From positions 1 to 38,558 of the forward strand of contig CASEIZ010000073.1 of assembly GCA_949288185.1 (NCBI GenBank): a stretch of DNA of 38,558 nt, read 5' to 3'. Position 1 is the first letter of the stretch. Each line of letters starts with the position of its first letter. Made by a program: the position numbers and the translations under genes. The notes under the pieces were generated by a model. The model made no database searches and was not told the origin of the DNA. It saw only the letters and a program-made list of their open reading frames with translations. Shown one piece after another: positions 4,620 through 37,460 of this stretch. Origin of the DNA: an uncultured Eubacteriales bacterium (GTDB lineage Bacteria > Bacillota > Clostridia > TANB77 > CAG-508).

Positions 4620-4686
4620 TGTCGCATTAAGATCGTTTGTCTGTGCGACATTTTTTGTCTCATTGAGATCGTTTGTCTGTGCGACA
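4620..4686 (+). repeat. 31-bp palindromic element, subfamily B, tandem pair (B1a, B1b)
   Basis: Two 31-bp units at 4620-4650 and 4656-4686 are separated by five T. Each ends in GTGCGACA and has CGTTTGTCTGT in the middle; the first begins TGTCGCAT and the second TGTCTCAT. The pair fills the gap between the DUF1653 stop codon (2 nt away) and the serS leader. Confidence 0.85.
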
Positions 4687-12172: not shown

Positions 12173-12195
12173 GGGATTTTGGGGACGGACTCAAA
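12173..12195 (+). repeat. GGGACGGACTC repeat, copy 1
   Basis: A 23-nt sequence, from GGGATTTTGGGG to GACTCAAA, is identical at 24145-24167. It lies between dnaK and dnaJ, directly before the A1 hairpin. It resembles part of the GGGAC-containing elements but lacks the 31-bp frame. Confidence 0.6.
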
Positions 12196-12201
12196 TTTCC
12201 C

Positions 12202-12268
12202 TTTTTGTCCAATTGGGGACGTTTCTGTTTGAATGTCCCAAACAGAAACGTCCCCAATTGGACAAAAA
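12202..12268 (+). repeat. Subfamily A inverted pair (A1) forming a 29-bp perfect stem between dnaK and dnaJ
   Basis: The arms 12202-12230 and 12240-12268 are perfect inverted repeats around a 9-nt loop (GAATGTCCC). The right half is a full 31-bp unit in minus orientation (12234-12264). The left half is a plus unit lacking its last five bases. The transcript would fold into a very stable hairpin inside the chaperone operon. Confidence 0.9.
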
Positions 12269-13463: not shown

Positions 13464-13503
13464 AAAATGTCGCATAGAGTTCGTTTGTCTATGCGACATT
13501 TTT
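13463..13503 (+). terminator. Terminator of the dnaK operon made by a subfamily B element (B2)
   Basis: The 31-bp unit at 13468-13498 (TGTCGCAT...ATGCGACA), with flanking A and T runs, forms a perfect 16-bp stem around the 9-nt loop GTTCGTTTG and ends in TTTTT. It starts 4 nt after the dnaJ stop codon and looks like a canonical intrinsic terminator. Confidence 0.85.
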
Positions 13504-16635: not shown

Positions 16636-16765
16636 TGTCCAATTGGGGACGTTTCTGTTTGGGACATTTTTATGTAAATTTTAAATATATCTAAATATGA
16701 AACATCTCTAGTATCATAAAGCTTTACATAAAAATGTCCCAAACAGAAACGTCCCCAATTGGACA
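16636..16765 (+). repeat. Subfamily A inverted pair (A2), 42-bp perfect arms
   Basis: Units at 16636-16666 (plus) and 16735-16765 (minus) are extended by the shared flank ATTTTTATGTAAA. This gives perfect 42-bp arms (16637-16678 and 16723-16764) around a 44-nt AT-rich loop. The left unit begins right after the LtaS-like stop codon; the right unit ends just before the ruvB ribosome site. Confidence 0.92.
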
Positions 16766-16788: not shown

Positions 16789-17793
16789 ATGGAGGAAGAC
16801 AGAATTATCAGTCCAGAATTAGAAAACACAGGAGAAGAACGATTAGAAAATTCATTAAGACCCAAAACATTAGATGAATATATTGGACAAGATAAAATCA
16901 AAGAAAATATGAAGATATATATAGAAGCAGCCAAAAAAAGAGGAGAGCCATTAGACCATGTTTTATTATATGGACCTCCTGGACTTGGAAAAACAACTTT
17001 ATCGAATATTATATCTAATGAAATGAATTCCAATATAAAAATTACTTCTGGTCCAGCCATCGAAAAGCCAGGAGATTTAGCAGCACTTCTTACAAATCTT
17101 TCAGAATTTGACGTTTTGTTTATAGATGAAATTCACAGACTTAGTAAAAGTGTAGAAGAAATTTTATATCCAGCTTTAGAGGATTATACATTAGACATTA
17201 TTATAGGAAAAGGACCAAGCGCAAGGTCAATTAGACTAGATTTACCTAAATTTACATTAATTGGTGCAACTACAAAAGCTGGTTCATTAACAACACCATT
17301 AAGAGATAGATTTGGAATTGTACATAGATTGGAGTTATATTCTGTAGAAGACCTTACCAAAATTGTAAAACGTTCAGCAGGAATTTTAAATGTGAAAATA
17401 GAAGAGGAAGCAGCAACAGAAATTGCTAGAAGGTCAAGAGGAACTCCAAGAATAGCTAACCGTTTATTAAAAAGAGTAAGAGATTATGCAGCTGTGTTAG
17501 GTGATGGAGATATTACCTTAAAAATTACAAAACATGCTTTAAATAAACTAGAAATTGATGAGCTAGGACTAGATGAAATTGATAGAAAAATATTAGATAC
17601 CATGATTGTACAATATACAGGAAGACCAGTGGGAATAGAAGCATTAGCAGCGACAGTTGGAGAAGAAGTAGATACCATTGAAGATGTGTATGAACCATAT
17701 TTAATTCAAATTGGATTTATTGCCAGAACATTGAGAGGAAGAGTGGTTTTACCACCAGCATATAAACATTTAGGGTATCCAATGTCGCATTGA
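16789..17793 (+). CDS. ruvB: Holliday junction branch migration helicase RuvB
   Basis: Hexameric AAA+ motor that drives branch migration with RuvA and RuvC. It has 334 residues, the usual length. Conserved blocks are [19 protein letters not shown], Walker [10 protein letters not shown], Walker B FIDEIHR, sensor [18 protein letters not shown], and the C-terminal winged helix with [17 protein letters not shown] 16789 is chosen because AAAGGAGG lies 10 nt before it; the frame's earlier ATG lies in the A2 repeat. ruvA is not next to it. The last residues MSH and the stop codon come from element B3. Confidence 0.97.
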
Positions 17794-17813
17794 GTTCGTT
17801 TGTTGATGCGACA
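17783..17813 (+). repeat. Subfamily B element B3 overlapping the ruvB stop
   Basis: TGTCGCAT...GATGCGACA with the CGTTT core in place. The TGA at 17791-17793, inside the unit, ends ruvB. A possible degenerate second unit with CGTTT and a terminal ACA follows at 17826-17856. Confidence 0.85.
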
Positions 17814-17887
17814 TTTTGTAGGAACAGTGGGACTAAATTCGTTTGAACCCAAAACAACGAAATAGAAGTAATAAGGGGAGTTTTTTA

Positions 17888-24144: not shown

Positions 24145-24167
24145 GGGATTTTGGGGACGGACTCAAA
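24145..24167 (+). repeat. GGGACGGACTC repeat, copy 2
   Basis: Identical over 23 nt to 12173-12195, 27 nt before the GT-C gene. It may be a remnant of a related element. Confidence 0.6.
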
Positions 24168-24194: not shown

Positions 24195-25652
24195 ATGAAG
24201 GAAAAAGTAATAGGATTTATCCATTCAAAGAAAATAATCTTAATTGGTTTTGTATTAATGGCTATCATTTTTGCAGTACCATCTATTCAGTATTTATTAG
24301 AAAATGGAACAATATTAAATTTTAATGAATATTTTAAATTTTGTTTAGATGATAGTAATCAAGTGGAACAAACTATCATATATTTAATGCTATTAACAGG
24401 ATTAACTATATGCTATTTTTTAATTGTGAAACATAGAGAAAACTTATTTAAAAATAATAAGCAGATGTATATGTATATAGCGATTATTTCACTAATCTTT
24501 GTAGTAGTTGTACCATTTTTGAGTTCAGATGTGTTTTACTATTTAGGTGTAGGAAGATTAGATAGTGCATATGGACAAAATCCATATTATGTGACAATCA
24601 AAGACTTTGTGGAAAGTGAAGATAATAGCCAATATTTAGAGCAAGATACAGTATTAGCAAAGGGATATGAAAATGATTGGGGAAGTACAACAGTTGTATA
24701 TGGACCTGTGTGGACACTTGTTTGTAAGATTGTAGCAGGCATTTCCTTTGGGAATATTGATATCGGATTATTGGTATTCAAATTATTGAACATGGCAATT
24801 CATCTAGTGAATTGTTATCTTATCTATCAATTGACAGGAAAGAAATTATTTGTATTACTATATGGATTAAATCCGTATATGTTTATAGAAGGGATAGCAA
24901 ATGTACATAATGATATATATGTTGTGACATGTATATTAGCTTCTTTATATTTCTTATTAAAAAAGAAAAATATCATTGTTAGTATTGTATTTTTAGCATT
25001 GGCTACTGCAATAAAATATTTTGCAATTTTATTATTACCATTTATCATTATATATTATTTTAGAGACAAAAAACCTTGGGAGAGATTGAAGAATTGTTTT
25101 TTATATGGTATGCTATTTGTATTTATAGTAGCAATTACTTATTTGTTATACATACAAGATATACAAGTATTAAGTGGAATCATGACACAACAAGGGAAAT
25201 TTACGAAAAACTTTTATATTATACTAATGGAATATTTTGATATACCAGATTTGGTTTCTAATGTAAATATGATATTCCTCATCTCATTTATCATTATCTA
25301 TTTCTTTACCTGTTTGACATTATTATATAAAAAACAGATAACATTTAGAGAAGAAATAAGAAAAGCAGAATATTTTTTAGTAGTATTTCTATTTTTATTA
25401 ATTACCAATTTTCAACCATGGTATATTATGTGGTTATTTCCATTAATAATGTGGCAAAAGAAAAAAATGTTACAATTCGTTGTGCAAATCGCATTAATCA
25501 GTCAATTTGCCAATAGTGTTTTCTTAATCAATGGAGAGGGTTGGAGAAATGGAACACCATTTACATTTTTCATGTTGTTAGGGATTTTTGTATGTTTGAA
25601 TTTAATGTCGCATAGACAAACGAACTCTATGAGACAAAAAAATGTCGCATAG
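24195..25652 (+). CDS. Polytopic GT-C type glycosyltransferase (mannosyltransferase-like)
   Basis: A membrane protein of 485 residues with about eleven hydrophobic helices. The first extracytoplasmic region has VPFLSSDVFYYLGVGRLDS and YGQNPYYV, then a loop ending in VVYGPVWT; acidic residues after the first helix and the YGP motif are typical of polyprenol-phosphate-dependent GT-C enzymes. LNPYMFIEGIANVHND and NFQPWYIMWLFPL are further conserved blocks. It probably adds a sugar to a surface polymer or lipid. The native sequence ends near FVCLNL; the last 15 residues, from MSHRQTN on, are encoded by the B4 repeats, which also supply the TAG stop. ATG 24195 follows AGGAGAAAAG. Confidence 0.8.
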   Translation: MKEKVIGFIHSKKIILIGFVLMAIIFAVPSIQYLLENGTILNFNEYFKFCLDDSNQVEQTIIYLMLLTGLTICYFLIVKHRENLFKNNKQMYMYIAIISLIFVVVVPFLSSDVFYYLGVGRLDSAYGQNPYYVTIKDFVESEDNSQYLEQDTVLAKGYENDWGSTTVVYGPVWTLVCKIVAGISFGNIDIGLLVFKLLNMAIHLVNCYLIYQLTGKKLFVLLYGLNPYMFIEGIANVHNDIYVVTCILASLYFLLKKKNIIVSIVFLALATAIKYFAILLLPFIIIYYFRDKKPWERLKNCFLYGMLFVFIVAITYLLYIQDIQVLSGIMTQQGKFTKNFYIILMEYFDIPDLVSNVNMIFLISFIIIYFFTCLTLLYKKQITFREEIRKAEYFLVVFLFLLITNFQPWYIMWLFPLIMWQKKKMLQFVVQIALISQFANSVFLINGEGWRNGTPFTFFMLLGIFVCLNLMSHRQTNSMRQKNVA

Positions 25653-25673
25653 ACAAACGATCCCAATGCGACA
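25604..25673 (-). repeat. Subfamily B tandem pair (B4), left copy of a 70-bp direct repeat
   Basis: Units at 25606-25636 (TGTCTCAT type on the minus strand) and 25643-25673 (TGTCGCAT type) are separated by six A. The whole 70 bp is identical to 26876-26945. It overlaps the end of the GT-C gene. Confidence 0.92.
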
Positions 25674-26875: not shown

Positions 26876-26945
26876 AATGTCGCATAGACAAACGAACTCT
26901 ATGAGACAAAAAAATGTCGCATAGACAAACGATCCCAATGCGACA
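26876..26945 (-). repeat. Subfamily B tandem pair (B5), right copy of the 70-bp direct repeat
   Basis: Units at 26878-26908 and 26915-26945, identical to B4 over 70 bp, start 1272 bp later. It lies between P3 and the polA ribosome site. Confidence 0.92.
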
Positions 26946-30278: not shown

Positions 30279-30309
30279 TGTCCTTTTGGGGACGTTTCTG
30301 TTTGGGACA
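30279..30309 (+). repeat. Subfamily A element A3
   Basis: TGTCCTTTTGGGGACGTTTC...GGGACA, starting at the base after the transglycosylase stop codon and followed by TTTT. It may terminate the polA-slt transcript. Confidence 0.88.
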
Positions 30310-31756: not shown

Positions 31757-33130
31757 ATGAAAACAGTAGCATTTATTACATTGGGATGTAAAGTGAATCA
31801 ATATGAGACAAATGCCATGACACAACAATTTATAGAAAAAGGGTATGAAGTGGTAGAACATACTCAAAAAGCAGATATCTATATTGTTAATACTTGTACA
31901 GTAACCAATATGTCAGATAGAAAATCTAGACAAATGTTAAGAAGAGTAAAAGAATTAAATAAAGAGGCAATTGTAGTTGCTTGTGGTTGTTATGCACAAG
32001 TAGCCAAAGAAGAATTAGAAAAGATAGAAGAAATTAACTTAGTGTTAGGAAATAATGAGAAAAAAGACATTGTAGAACATGTTGAAAAATATATAAAAAA
32101 TCAAATTTCTAAAAAATCAGAAGAAGATAAACGATATATAGAAATAAAAAACACAAAAGTGCAACAAACCACAGAAATACAAAAAAAGATAGAAACACAA
32201 ATAGAAGATGTAATGAATCAAAAGGAATTTGTGGAATTTGGTGATATCACATTTACAGAAAAGACAAGAGCTGTTATCAAAATTCAAGATGGTTGTGACC
32301 GTTTTTGTTCTTATTGCATTATTCCTTATGCACGAGGAAGAGTAAGAAGTAGAAAGCCAGAACATATCTTATCAGAAATTCGCAAAATAGCAAAAAAAAG
32401 CATAAAAGAAGTCGTTATAACCGGAATTCATATAGCATCATATGGAAAAGATTTTAAGCAAGAATATCGATTAATTGATTTATTAGAAGAAATGAATGAA
32501 ATAGAGGGAATTGAAAGAATCAGATTAGGTTCGATAGAGCCATTATTAATAACAGAAGAATTTGTCAGCAGATTAGAAAAATTATCTAAAATATGTCATC
32601 AATTTCATTTATCACTACAAAGTGGTTGTGATGAAACATTAAACAGAATGAATAGAAGATATACCACAGAACAATTTAAAGAGATAACAAAGTTGTTAAG
32701 AAAAACATTTGAAGATGCTATATTAACAACAGATATCATTGTAGGATTTCCAGGAGAAAGTGAAGAAGAATTTGAAAAAACATACGAATTTTTAAAAGAA
32801 ATAAAATTCTACAAAATGCATGTATTCAAATATTCACCAAGAAAAGGAACAAAAGCAGCAGTGATGCCAAATCAAATAGATGGAAACAAAAAAGAAGAAA
32901 GAAGTAAAAAATTAATAGAGTTATCCAACGAAAATGAAAAAGCATATAATGAGCAATATGTAGGAAAAGAAGTGGAAGTCCTTTTCGAAGAAGAAAAAAA
33001 TGGCATGTGGCAAGGACATACGAAAAATTACATATTAGCACATTATAAAACAGAGGAAAACTTAGAAAATAAAATGATAAAATTACAATGTGTAGAAGCA
33101 GAACAAGAATATCTAATTGTGTCCCATTAG
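31757..33130 (+). CDS. mtaB: tRNA (N6-threonylcarbamoyladenosine-37-C2) methylthiotransferase MtaB
   Basis: Adds a methylthio group to t6A37 in ANN-decoding tRNAs. It has 457 residues. The N-terminal UPF0004 domain has GCKVNQYE, NTCTVTN and CGCYAQ, the Cys ligands of the auxiliary cluster. The radical SAM motif is CDRFCSYC (near 178), followed by IPYARGRVRSR, TGIHIASYG, SLQSGCDETLNRM and DIIVGFPGE. A TRAM-like C-terminus follows. The sequence resembles MtaB (YqeV) rather than MiaB. The final VSH and stop TAG are encoded by repeat A4, which starts at 33120. ATG follows AAGGAGAG. Confidence 0.93.
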   Translation: MKTVAFITLGCKVNQYETNAMTQQFIEKGYEVVEHTQKADIYIVNTCTVTNMSDRKSRQMLRRVKELNKEAIVVACGCYAQVAKEELEKIEEINLVLGNNEKKDIVEHVEKYIKNQISKKSEEDKRYIEIKNTKVQQTTEIQKKIETQIEDVMNQKEFVEFGDITFTEKTRAVIKIQDGCDRFCSYCIIPYARGRVRSRKPEHILSEIRKIAKKSIKEVVITGIHIASYGKDFKQEYRLIDLLEEMNEIEGIERIRLGSIEPLLITEEFVSRLEKLSKICHQFHLSLQSGCDETLNRMNRRYTTEQFKEITKLLRKTFEDAILTTDIIVGFPGESEEEFEKTYEFLKEIKFYKMHVFKYSPRKGTKAAVMPNQIDGNKKEERSKKLIELSNENEKAYNEQYVGKEVEVLFEEEKNGMWQGHTKNYILAHYKTEENLENKMIKLQCVEAEQEYLIVSH

Positions 33131-33150
33131 GGACGTTTCTGTTTGGGACA
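33120..33150 (+). repeat. Subfamily A element A4 overlapping the mtaB stop
   Basis: TGTCCCATTAGGGACGTTTC...GGGACA with the downstream flank TTTTTATGTAAA shared with A2. The TAG stop of mtaB is at 33128-33130 inside the unit. Confidence 0.88.
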
Positions 33151-33313
33151 TTTTTATGTAAAGTTTCTAAAATTGAAAAGAAAAATGTAACAAAAATGTA
33201 ACGATTTTGTAATGTATATTTAACAAAAAAAACAATAAAAAATATTGATAAATAACGAAAGTTGTAGTACAACTAATATAATAAATATGTTACATTACAA
33301 AGGAGAAGTTTTA

Positions 33314-33667: not shown

Positions 33668-33698
33668 TGTCCTTTTGGGGACGTTTCTGTTTGGGACA
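33668..33698 (+). repeat. Subfamily A element A5
   Basis: TGTCCTTTTGGGGACGTTTC...GGGACA, 3 nt after the preceding stop and 191 nt before the transposase start, with flanking AAAAA and TTTTT that extend the stem. Confidence 0.88.
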
Positions 33699-33800
33699 TT
33701 TTTATTATAGGCAAACAGAAATATTTGTTTTGAAGGATATAGCTTAAATAAATGATGTCGAAACAGTGACAAATAATATACGTAAAATAGAAATTATTTT

Positions 33801-33847
33801 AAAAAGTATAGCAAAATGAAGAGAAATATGCTATACTTTTTTTGTTT
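33801..33847 (+). terminator. Intrinsic terminator before the RAYT gene
   Basis: AAAAAGTATAGCA and TGCTATACTTTTT form a perfect 13-bp stem followed by more T. It should shield the transposase gene from upstream transcription. Confidence 0.85.
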
Positions 33848-33889
33848 TTAGGGGCAAGTAAAAAATAATAAAGTAAGGAGAGATGAATT

Positions 33890-34660
33890 TTGCCCCGTAT
33901 AGCAAGAAAAATTAGTAGTACAAAAGTATACCATATCATTTTAAGAGGAAATGATAGACAAGACATATTTTTGGATGAGCAAGACTTTCACAAGTTTTTA
34001 AAAATAATAAAAACTTTAAAAGGAAAGTATCAATATGATATATATGCATATTGTTTGATGAGCAATCATGTACATTTAGTTATCTATGATAAAAATATGC
34101 AGCTTTCTAAAATTATACAAAGTATGGAAATATCATATGCAAGTTATTTTGCAAAGAAATATAATAAAGTGGGACATTTATTCCAAAATAGATTTTTAAG
34201 CAAGAATGTCGAAACAAAAGAATATTTATGTAGGTTATGTAGATATATACATCAAAATCCACTAAAAGCTAGAATTTCAAATACACAGGATTATAAGTGG
34301 AGTAGTTATCATGAGTTTATTTATGGTGAAAAGATTATAAGCCCAGAATTAGTTTTATCAATGTTTGGTCCAAGTAAAAAGGAAGCTATAGAAAACTTTA
34401 TGATTTTTCATAGTTATGAAGCAAGCTTCATAAATGAGGAAGTTGAATATGAATGTATTGAGAAAATAACAGATGAACAAGTAAAGGAAAAAATTCAAAA
34501 AATATTGAATATAAAAGATGTAAGAATGATAAATTCATATGATAGAAAAACTAGAAATGAAGAATTGCAAAAATTAGAAATCATAAAAGGTGTGTCAAAA
34601 GCACAATTGTCAAGAGTATTAGGAATGAACAGAAAAATTCTAGAAAGAATAATGAAATAA
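33890..34660 (+). CDS. REP-associated tyrosine transposase (Y1, IS200-like TnpA_REP)
   Basis: A 256-residue single-strand DNA transposase of the HUH class. The N-terminus MPRIARKISSTKVYHIILRG and SNHVHLVI (His60 and His62) are the family signature. The helix ISYASYFAKKYNKVGHLFQ carries the likely catalytic Tyr (83, 86 or 91; not resolved). LCRYIHQNPLKA and YKWSSYHEF follow. The C-terminal 60 residues end in a helix-turn-helix-like GVSKAQLSRVLGMNRKILER. RAYTs mobilise or maintain REP palindromes, and the surrounding A elements are the obvious substrate. The start is TTG with AAGGAGA 8 nt upstream. The gene looks intact. Confidence 0.9.
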   Translation: MPRIARKISSTKVYHIILRGNDRQDIFLDEQDFHKFLKIIKTLKGKYQYDIYAYCLMSNHVHLVIYDKNMQLSKIIQSMEISYASYFAKKYNKVGHLFQNRFLSKNVETKEYLCRLCRYIHQNPLKARISNTQDYKWSSYHEFIYGEKIISPELVLSMFGPSKKEAIENFMIFHSYEASFINEEVEYECIEKITDEQVKEKIQKILNIKDVRMINSYDRKTRNEELQKLEIIKGVSKAQLSRVLGMNRKILERIMK

Positions 34661-34681
34661 TAGAATGAAAAGATAAAACGT

Positions 34682-34760
34682 CTTGAATAGAGATATTACA
34701 AAATGATGAATGAAAATGTCCTGAATAGGGAGATATCACAAAATGATGAATAAAAATGTC
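34682..34760 (+). repeat. Tandem imperfect 39/40-bp duplication
   Basis: 34682-34720 and 34721-34760 share TGAATAG, AGATAT, ACAAAATGATGAAT and AAAATGTC with a few changes. The array lies between the RAYT stop and A6, and its second copy runs into A6. Confidence 0.75.
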
Positions 34761-34787
34761 CCAAACAGAAACGTCCCCAAAAGGACA
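34757..34787 (-). repeat. Subfamily A element A6 (minus orientation)
   Basis: The complement reads TGTCCTTTTGGGGACGTTTC...GGGACA, identical to A3 and A5. It lies 96 nt after the transposase stop. Confidence 0.88.
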
Positions 34788-34837
34788 AAAGGACAAACAG
34801 ATGAAAGGAGGAAGGGGACAAGGACTTAACATAAAAA

Positions 34838-34868
34838 TGTCCCAAACAGAAACGTCCCCAAAAGGACA
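34838..34868 (-). repeat. Subfamily A element A7 (minus orientation), abutting radA
   Basis: Same 31-bp unit as A6. It ends 2 nt before the radA ATG, so AAAAGGA within it is the nearest ribosome-site-like sequence for radA. Confidence 0.88.
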
Positions 34869-34870
34869 AA

Positions 34871-36235
34871 ATGGCAAAAAGTAAAACAATTTTTGTATGT
34901 AGTGAATGTGGTAATGAGTCTAGTAAATGGCTTGGAAAATGTCCAGCTTGTAATAGTTGGAATACATTTTATGAACAAAAAGTGGTAGAGACCAAAGCAG
35001 GAGGACACAAGGATTTAGCCAAAAGTGAAAATAAGCCACAAAAGTTAAATTCTTATGAGGCAAAAGAAACATTGAGAACTTCTACAGGTTTTGGAGAGTT
35101 AGATAGAGTATTAGGTGGGGGACTTGTAAAAGGTTCTCTTGTATTACTTGGTGGAGAACCTGGAATTGGAAAGTCTACTTTAATTTTGCAAATATGTGAT
35201 AAAGTAAAAGGTGAAGGAAAAGTTTTATATGTTTCAGGAGAAGAATCTGCAGAGCAAATTAAAATGAGAGCAGATAGATTAGGTATCAACAATGATGATA
35301 TTTTATTTTTAGGGGAAACAGATATAGATGTTGTGAATCAAGCGATTATAGAAGTGAATCCTAAATTGGTAATTATTGATTCTATTCAAACCATGTATTC
35401 AGAAGAAATTTCAGCAGCTGCTGGAAGTGTTAGTCAAGTAAGAGAGATTACTTCACAGGTTATGAGAGTATGCAAATCTAGAGCGATTACAACCATTATT
35501 ATTGGACATGTAACAAAAGAAGGAAATATTGCAGGTCCAAGAGTTTTAGAACATATGGTAGATACTGTGTTGTACCTAGAAGGAGAAAGATATTTTTCAT
35601 ACAGAGTATTAAGAGGTGTTAAAAATAGATTTGGTTCAACCAATGAAATTGGCATGTTTGAAATGAATGAAGAAGGTATGTGTGAAATTACCAATCCTTC
35701 AGATATTTTGATTTCAGAAAGAGAAGATAATCCAGCTGGTTCTTGTATTGTTTCTAGTATAGAAGGAACAAGGGCCATCTTAATAGAATTACAAGCTTTA
35801 ACAACCCAAAGTATTTTCGGATTTCCCAAAAGAACAGCAAATGGAACGGATTATAATAGATTAGCATTATTAATTGCCGTATTAGAAAAAAGAGCAGGCA
35901 TTATGTTAGGAAGTCAAGACATCTATTTAAATTTAGTAGGAGGTATAAGAGTAAATGAACCATCTATTGATTTAGGTATGATGATGGCAGTGGTTTCCAG
36001 TTTTAAAAATGTACCAATTCCAAAAGACATGGTAATTATCGGAGAAGTGGGGTTGACAGGAGAAGTCAGAAGAATTAATGTGATTGATAAAAGGTTGAAA
36101 GAAGCAGAAAAATTGGGATTTAAGAGTTGTATTATTCCAGAATCTAACAAAAAAGACTTGAAAGAAACATATAAATTAGATATAATAGGTGTCAGCAATA
36201 TTAATGAAGCAATGAAAAAGATTGGATTAAAATAG
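34871..36235 (+). CDS. radA: DNA repair protein RadA (Sms)
   Basis: RecA-like ATPase that promotes branch migration in recombination. It has 454 residues, the usual length. The N-terminal zinc finger has Cys10, Cys13, Cys24 and Cys27 (CSECG, CPAC). Walker A is GGEPGIGKST (about 94-103), the RadA-specific motif is KNRFGSTNEIGMFEM, and the Lon-like C-terminal domain has YLNLVGGIRVNEPSIDLGMM. ATG 34871 lies 2 nt after A7; the only SD-like sequence is AAAAGGA within that repeat, about 5 nt upstream. disA follows, the common radA-disA order in Firmicutes. Confidence 0.96.
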   Translation: MAKSKTIFVCSECGNESSKWLGKCPACNSWNTFYEQKVVETKAGGHKDLAKSENKPQKLNSYEAKETLRTSTGFGELDRVLGGGLVKGSLVLLGGEPGIGKSTLILQICDKVKGEGKVLYVSGEESAEQIKMRADRLGINNDDILFLGETDIDVVNQAIIEVNPKLVIIDSIQTMYSEEISAAAGSVSQVREITSQVMRVCKSRAITTIIIGHVTKEGNIAGPRVLEHMVDTVLYLEGERYFSYRVLRGVKNRFGSTNEIGMFEMNEEGMCEITNPSDILISEREDNPAGSCIVSSIEGTRAILIELQALTTQSIFGFPKRTANGTDYNRLALLIAVLEKRAGIMLGSQDIYLNLVGGIRVNEPSIDLGMMMAVVSSFKNVPIPKDMVIIGEVGLTGEVRRINVIDKRLKEAEKLGFKSCIIPESNKKDLKETYKLDIIGVSNINEAMKKIGLK

Positions 36236-37405: not shown

Positions 37406-37460
37406 TGGAACATTAGGGACGTGCCAAATCGTTTCAAAATGGAACAAAAGGGACAGACCT
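37406..37460 (+). repeat. Short direct repeat of TGGAACA..AGGGAC
   Basis: TGGAACATTAGGGAC and TGGAACAAAAGGGAC are 34 nt apart. CGTTTC lies between them, and the first unit could be a diverged form of the 31-bp frame (37416-37446 ends in ACA). It lies directly after the disA stop. Confidence 0.45.

Follow-up and report, generated by a model that had tools for sequence, protein, structure and literature searches.

The window, that is, the whole stretch of 38,558 nucleotides analysed here, is one of the 74 contigs (C73) of a 2.05-Mb genome of an uncultured Eubacteriales bacterium. Between mtaB and radA it carries the gene of a RAYT, a Y1 HUH transposase-like protein, which is flanked on both sides by inverted short repeats of a family termed A; further A units and units of a second family, B, lie elsewhere in the window (Table 1). 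Compared on opposite strands, A5 and A6 match over 39/39 bp and A5 and A7 over 38/38 bp, and a 35-nt A core recurs exactly at four window sites, 30279 (+), 33668 (+), 34753-34787 (-) and 34834-34868 (-), for which some 2e-10 pairs would be expected by chance. These coordinates and matches bear out a preliminary description of the locus, which had placed A5 in plus orientation upstream of the gene and A6 and A7 in minus orientation downstream; the 31-bp identity that it gave is real, although its length was understated. The A copies crowd gene ends, namely the mtaB stop, the stop codon before 30279 and the radA leader.

Table 1. The RAYT gene and the A and B units of the window
Feature	Position	Strand	Remarks
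RAYT (Y1 HUH transposase-like) gene	33890-34660	+	256 aa, HUH H60/H62, Tyr119
A5, upstream A unit	33668-33706	+	4 nt past stop codon of small ORF
A6, inverted A unit downstream of RAYT	34749-34787	-	
A7, second inverted downstream A unit	34831-34868	-	between radA Shine-Dalgarno and ATG
A unit over mtaB 3' end	33120-33162	+	provides mtaB stop codon
A unit directly past stop codon	30279-30313	+	core identical to A5-A7
Convergent A pair (A+, A-), 68-bp interior	16636-16765		REPIN-like
Truncated A+ fused to full A-	12206-12264		
Two tandem B units	4620-4686	+	family of C56 paralogue, not window RAYT
B unit	13468-13502	+	
B unit	17783-17817	+	
Two tandem B units	25606-25673	-	
Two tandem B units	26878-26945	-	

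Several smaller features surround the gene. From the RAYT stop to A6 (34680-34748) run two tandem repeats, degenerate and each about 40 bp long, with A-like beginnings (AATGTCCTGAATAG, AACGTCTTGAATAG); they are also present in the relative G181. In the A7 region (34807-34873) the outer end of the unit, AAAAGGACAAAATG, may substitute for the radA Shine-Dalgarno sequence; G171, which is without A7, carries AAAGGAGAGAAAAATG before radA. An in-frame N-terminal extension of RadA from an ATG within A7 was ruled out by a frame offset of 1. At the mtaB-end A site (33120-33130), B units are found in G190, and G171 and G164 are without an element.

The RAYT protein

The RAYT open reading frame begins with a TTG start codon behind a good ribosome-binding site (AAGGAGAG), and its product matches Pfam Y1_Tnp (2e-16). 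The predicted structural model (pLDDT 89) finds its best fold match in 4er8, the E. coli TnpAREP with a REP hairpin (E 4.6e-7), with the IS608 and ISDra2 TnpA proteins ranking below it, and shows an additional helical region at the C-terminus; no Pfam match to an HTH domain was obtained at E<=0.001, and a sequence search of solved structures with the protein returned no match. When 29 RAYT proteins are aligned, all of them share His60, His62 and Tyr119. With its HUH motif, a single catalytic tyrosine in a Y---NP context and the TnpAREP fold, the protein has the defining features of the RAYT superfamily, and its initial naming as a Y1 HUH enzyme and RAYT is supported by fold and catalytic residues. 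It scores 66.3 bits with the NCBIfam model for REP-associated tyrosine transposases (NF047646), under the 80-bit cut-off of a model that may centre on proteobacterial groups. The NHVH, FQ, SS(Y) and YIHxNP signatures are best fitted by subclass 2.1 of Quentin 2018, the largest TnpAREP subclass in that study (PMC6006769), although YIHQNP departs from the exact Y[IV]HLNP-type consensus of that subclass, YIHLNP. Judged by these signature motifs, the enzyme probably belongs to Quentin subclass 2.1, or Bertels group 1.

The gene is present in one copy in the genome, where its Y1 paralogues are 24-64% identical to it and each single, and its orthologues in about 20 species likewise lie between mtaB and radA. 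Being single in its family and fixed in place across these species, RAYT is vertically inherited and does not jump.

Repeat pairs, repeat families and their enzymes

Among the listed A copies of the genome, close neighbours have a uniform polarity, 15/15 being convergent and none otherwise arranged. The two ends of a pair are of the same subtype in 14 of the 15 (5.2 expected, P<1e-5), and over three genomes matched ends were found in 37 of 38 A pairs. In the relatives G164 and G169 the interiors of many different pairs, about 90-125 bp long, align with one another at 85-100% identity over part or full length and in either orientation; those of the window's own genome are more varied, some being common to small groups. 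Because the ends are matched and the interiors homologous, the A pair rather than the single A unit is likely to be the mobile unit, and it resembles a REPIN in that two inverted palindromic units round a spacer are dispersed in the genome. When 33 element clusters were compared with six relatives in search of empty sites and target duplications, two near-empty sites were all that emerged, with no usable boundary and no clean empty site or junction.

Such pairs could also be read as internal-deletion derivatives of a self-moving IS200/IS605-like insertion sequence formed by RAYT with A5 and A6/A7, since the gene has inverted ends that the non-autonomous pairs share. The HUH fold and the catalytic residues are indeed common to RAYT and the TnpA of IS608 and ISDra2, but here there is no tnpB, there are no multiple identical gene copies, and the motif is Y---NP and not Y---Q. 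The genome holds one copy per family, at a locus fixed in about 20 species, the interiors of the pairs checked resemble each other and not the RAYT gene region, and the stretch from A5 to A6 holds a host terminator that is retained in G190. We therefore consider the insertion sequence improbable. The radA locus of G190 is without RAYT, A5, A6 and A7; clean excision of a RAYT unit was ruled out there, and a deletion fits better, since the host terminator is retained and the radA leader resembles the leader of RAYT itself.

Copy counts throughout are pattern-based. The genome contains about 82 A and 99 B copies, and the joint A+B pattern gave 184 genome matches vs none for a reversed-pattern control. 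It encodes three Y1 genes (window, C56 and C14). The C56 RAYT, 63-64% identical to that of the window, has inverted B units on either side; beside the C14 RAYT, 24% identical, stand inverted units belonging to a third family, C (TGAACGTTAGGGACGTGCC...), the core of which occurs in about 23 copies. Since B flanks the C56 paralogue, there is no need to assign it to the window RAYT, for which the best interpretation is that it drives A and not B. The B units often form head-to-tail arrays of about 33-37 bp on a few contigs, often in one orientation (seen on C50 and C56 of this genome and on C15 of G190); A units form inverted pairs instead. The third family, whose cognate enzyme is the C14 RAYT, has a core at 37415-37429 of the window (AGGGACGTGCCAAAT). 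Cores of a further family, GGGGACGGACTCAAA, with about 12 genome copies, lie at 12181-12195 and 24153-24167. A RAYT flanked by this family was found in the relative G187 (C7) and none was seen in the window's genome, where the family thus looks orphan.

The pairing of family and enzyme recurs among 59 genomes of the genus, mostly draft assemblies of uncultured Clostridia, for which reason the absence of a RAYT can be an assembly gap. A is abundant (63-82 copies) in G000 (the window's own genome), G151, G164, G169 and G181; the RAYTs of the last four are 67-86% identical to the window RAYT and accompany 63-81 A but only 0-5 B copies. The RAYT gene of G169 is interrupted by one stop codon, yet A is abundant there. 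A variant one base shorter, A', reaches 50 copies in G171 and 70 in G103 (73% RAYT identity), and it matches the repeats beside their own RAYT. B-type RAYTs occur in two genomes, G000 and G190, and it is in these that B is abundant (99 and 131 copies), the two enzymes being 87% alike; G190, in which B units lie beside the gene, has 131 B vs 4 A copies. G201 is intermediate, with 28 A copies and a RAYT of 60% identity. On the RAYT tree, several branches of which are weakly supported, the A, A' and B labels require the minimum possible number of changes. Many elements in a genome that has no RAYT of this clade, the pattern that the preliminary description had named as contrary evidence, do occur, though only mildly: 36 A copies were counted in G160 (97% complete) and 42 B copies in G178 (80% complete), and each of these genomes carries a single RAYT, which is of the C14 sort and has other repeats beside it. 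These copies may be relics after enzyme loss.

We searched for the general core RGGGACRKWYC in 145 genomes of the family. Its median copy number is 17.5 in genomes with a RAYT vs 2 in those without, and at least 10 copies are present in 42/66 and 10/79 genomes, respectively (Fisher 1.3e-10); permutation within genera reproduced the link in 0 of 5000 trials (18 informative genera). RAYT presence and core copy number in relatives, the comparison by which the proposal was to be judged, are thus strongly linked across the family and also within genera. Inverted repeats flank 49 of 65 further named RAYT loci, mostly of Bacillota, compared with 0.9 for swapped flanks, and most carry an inward-reading GGGAC. 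A clear repeat was not found at two RAYT loci of a first set and at four of a second.

The T-run at unit ends and the way in which the units hug stop codons and ribosome-binding sites would suit host regulatory or terminator-like hairpins, spread by recombination and lying beside RAYT by chance. Against this stand the tracking of family type with RAYT type between close species, once at the same site, the homologous interiors of the inverted pairs, the link between RAYT and copy number within genera, and the presence of inverted repeats at the majority of Bacillota RAYT loci, and we regard chance association as very unlikely. That the window RAYT alone drives both A and B is the least credible reading of all: the two families do share a 35-nt framework and their enzymes 63-64% identity, but the C56 RAYT is flanked by B, G190 combines 131 B copies and a B-flanked B-type RAYT with a radA locus devoid of RAYT, and four genomes with an A-type RAYT have 63-81 A and 0-5 B copies. 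The earlier assignment of A to the window RAYT, whose clade A abundance tracks, is accordingly favoured by this sequence comparison, and its suggested extension to B is not sustained.

Recognition core, proposed mechanism and known systems

Neither the A nor the B unit contains a GTAG or GTGG tetranucleotide. Instead there is a conserved RGGGAC[G/A] core 5' of a hairpin, a layout that resembles a REP. The core also turns up at RAYT loci throughout Bacillota, and in many relatives the end repeat consists of RGGGACGKTTC, a hairpin and RGGGACACATCT. Stems of at least 6 bp are found in 24 of 31 segments between two RGGGAC cores, some pairs of segments being the two ends of one locus (shuffled best-stem mean 2.8), and the hairpin segments comprise 21 distinct stem sequences, so that pairing is preserved while the letters vary. 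The B unit forms a single strong 11-bp stem. A lone A unit folds weakly and ambiguously, into two short local hairpins of -4 to -6 kcal/mol, and its inner partner arm is degenerate (ATGTAAA).

We favour, with a probability of roughly 0.78, a TIRYT/TIRtron type of REPIN-RAYT-like system, in which the single-copy, vertically inherited window RAYT acts in trans on family A, and the C56 and C14 paralogues act likewise on B and C. The working unit would be the inverted A pair, which spans about 150 bp in close relatives and comprises an outer arm, the RGGGACG-TTTC core, an inner arm and the interior, followed by the mirror image. Each end could fold when single-stranded, such as at a replication fork; RAYT would recognise core plus fold in place of a GTAG foot, Tyr119 would nick, and strand transfer would spread the pair into new intergenic sites, provided that the present enzyme is active in binding and cleaving single-stranded DNA. 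Single A copies would be broken or decayed pairs. Copying in trans may underlie the association of RAYT with copy number and repeat type. More speculatively, and with more doubt than conviction, we propose that Bacillota group-1-type RAYTs read RGGGACG..TTC plus a variable hairpin instead of GTAG, that the code has diverged between paralogues into RGGGACG for A and RGWTCG for B, and that populations at the same site are replaced or re-typed to the resident enzyme, as may have happened at 30279, where G190 has an A-like stem joined to a B-like core.

The closest precedents are the TIRtrons (Di Nocera et al. 2013, PMC3733652), in which RAYT-like genes are accompanied by inverted repeats. These share GGGGWSAS, in the majority but not all of the TIRYT repeats, and in some cases belong to repeat families. 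Both systems have an HUH enzyme with FQ, SS and YIHxNP and inverted flanking repeats with a GGGG-type motif, and in both some repeats form dispersed families and dimers. They differ in that the A motif is GGGGACGT, with GGGACAG forms at related loci, and not strict GGGGWSAS, and that here there are tens to hundreds of copies, inverted pairs whose interiors are homologous, and a family of its own for each of three paralogues. In Quentin 2018 most TIRtrons fell into subclass 2.1; that study saw no REP-like sequences near this subclass and called for confirmation of its link to TIRs (PMC6006769); abundant REPIN-like populations, one per paralogue, therefore extend the known system. Our literature search on RAYTs in Firmicutes/Clostridia gave nothing specific.

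REPINs are inverted REP pairs copied by single-copy RAYTs and are commoner in RAYT-bearing E. coli. As in the Pseudomonas and enterobacterial REPIN-RAYT systems (groups 2 and 3; PMC3116915, PMC8049555, PMC8266576), a single-copy vertical RAYT is accompanied by non-autonomous inverted pairs of short palindromic units, and RAYT-bearing genomes hold more copies; unlike them, the present system has an RGGGAC[GA] core and no GTAG foot, resides in Bacillota, and carries Phe where those enzymes conserve Trp, close to the region that reads GTAG. The CGTC REP has a CGTC tag at one palindrome end and a CCA-like tail; A, compared with it by description only, has CGTC solely inside the unit. The system thus behaves like a REPIN-RAYT but is not a GTAG REP system; of the arrangement that the preliminary description had likened to known RAYT-REP systems, the inverted flanks stand. 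The absence of GTAG that it noted holds, and its suggestion of a possibly new recognition rule is partly supported, but the motif is not new in kind, GGGGWSAS around RAYT-like genes having been published in 2013.

Work on REPs and REPINs comes mainly from two proteobacterial RAYT groups with GTAG REPs. Here, enzymes resembling subclass 2.1 accompany abundant REPIN-like populations, with several independent enzyme-family pairs in one genome, and close species differ in the pair that they keep; such natural pairs make RAYT specificity and element maintenance testable.

The gaps at 16636 and 12203 hold different element families in relatives. At 16636, G151, G164 and G169 carry another inverted pair (GATGATTTTGGGGACGGAGCAAAAAATCATC), the interior of which recurs in G164 at the 12203 site.
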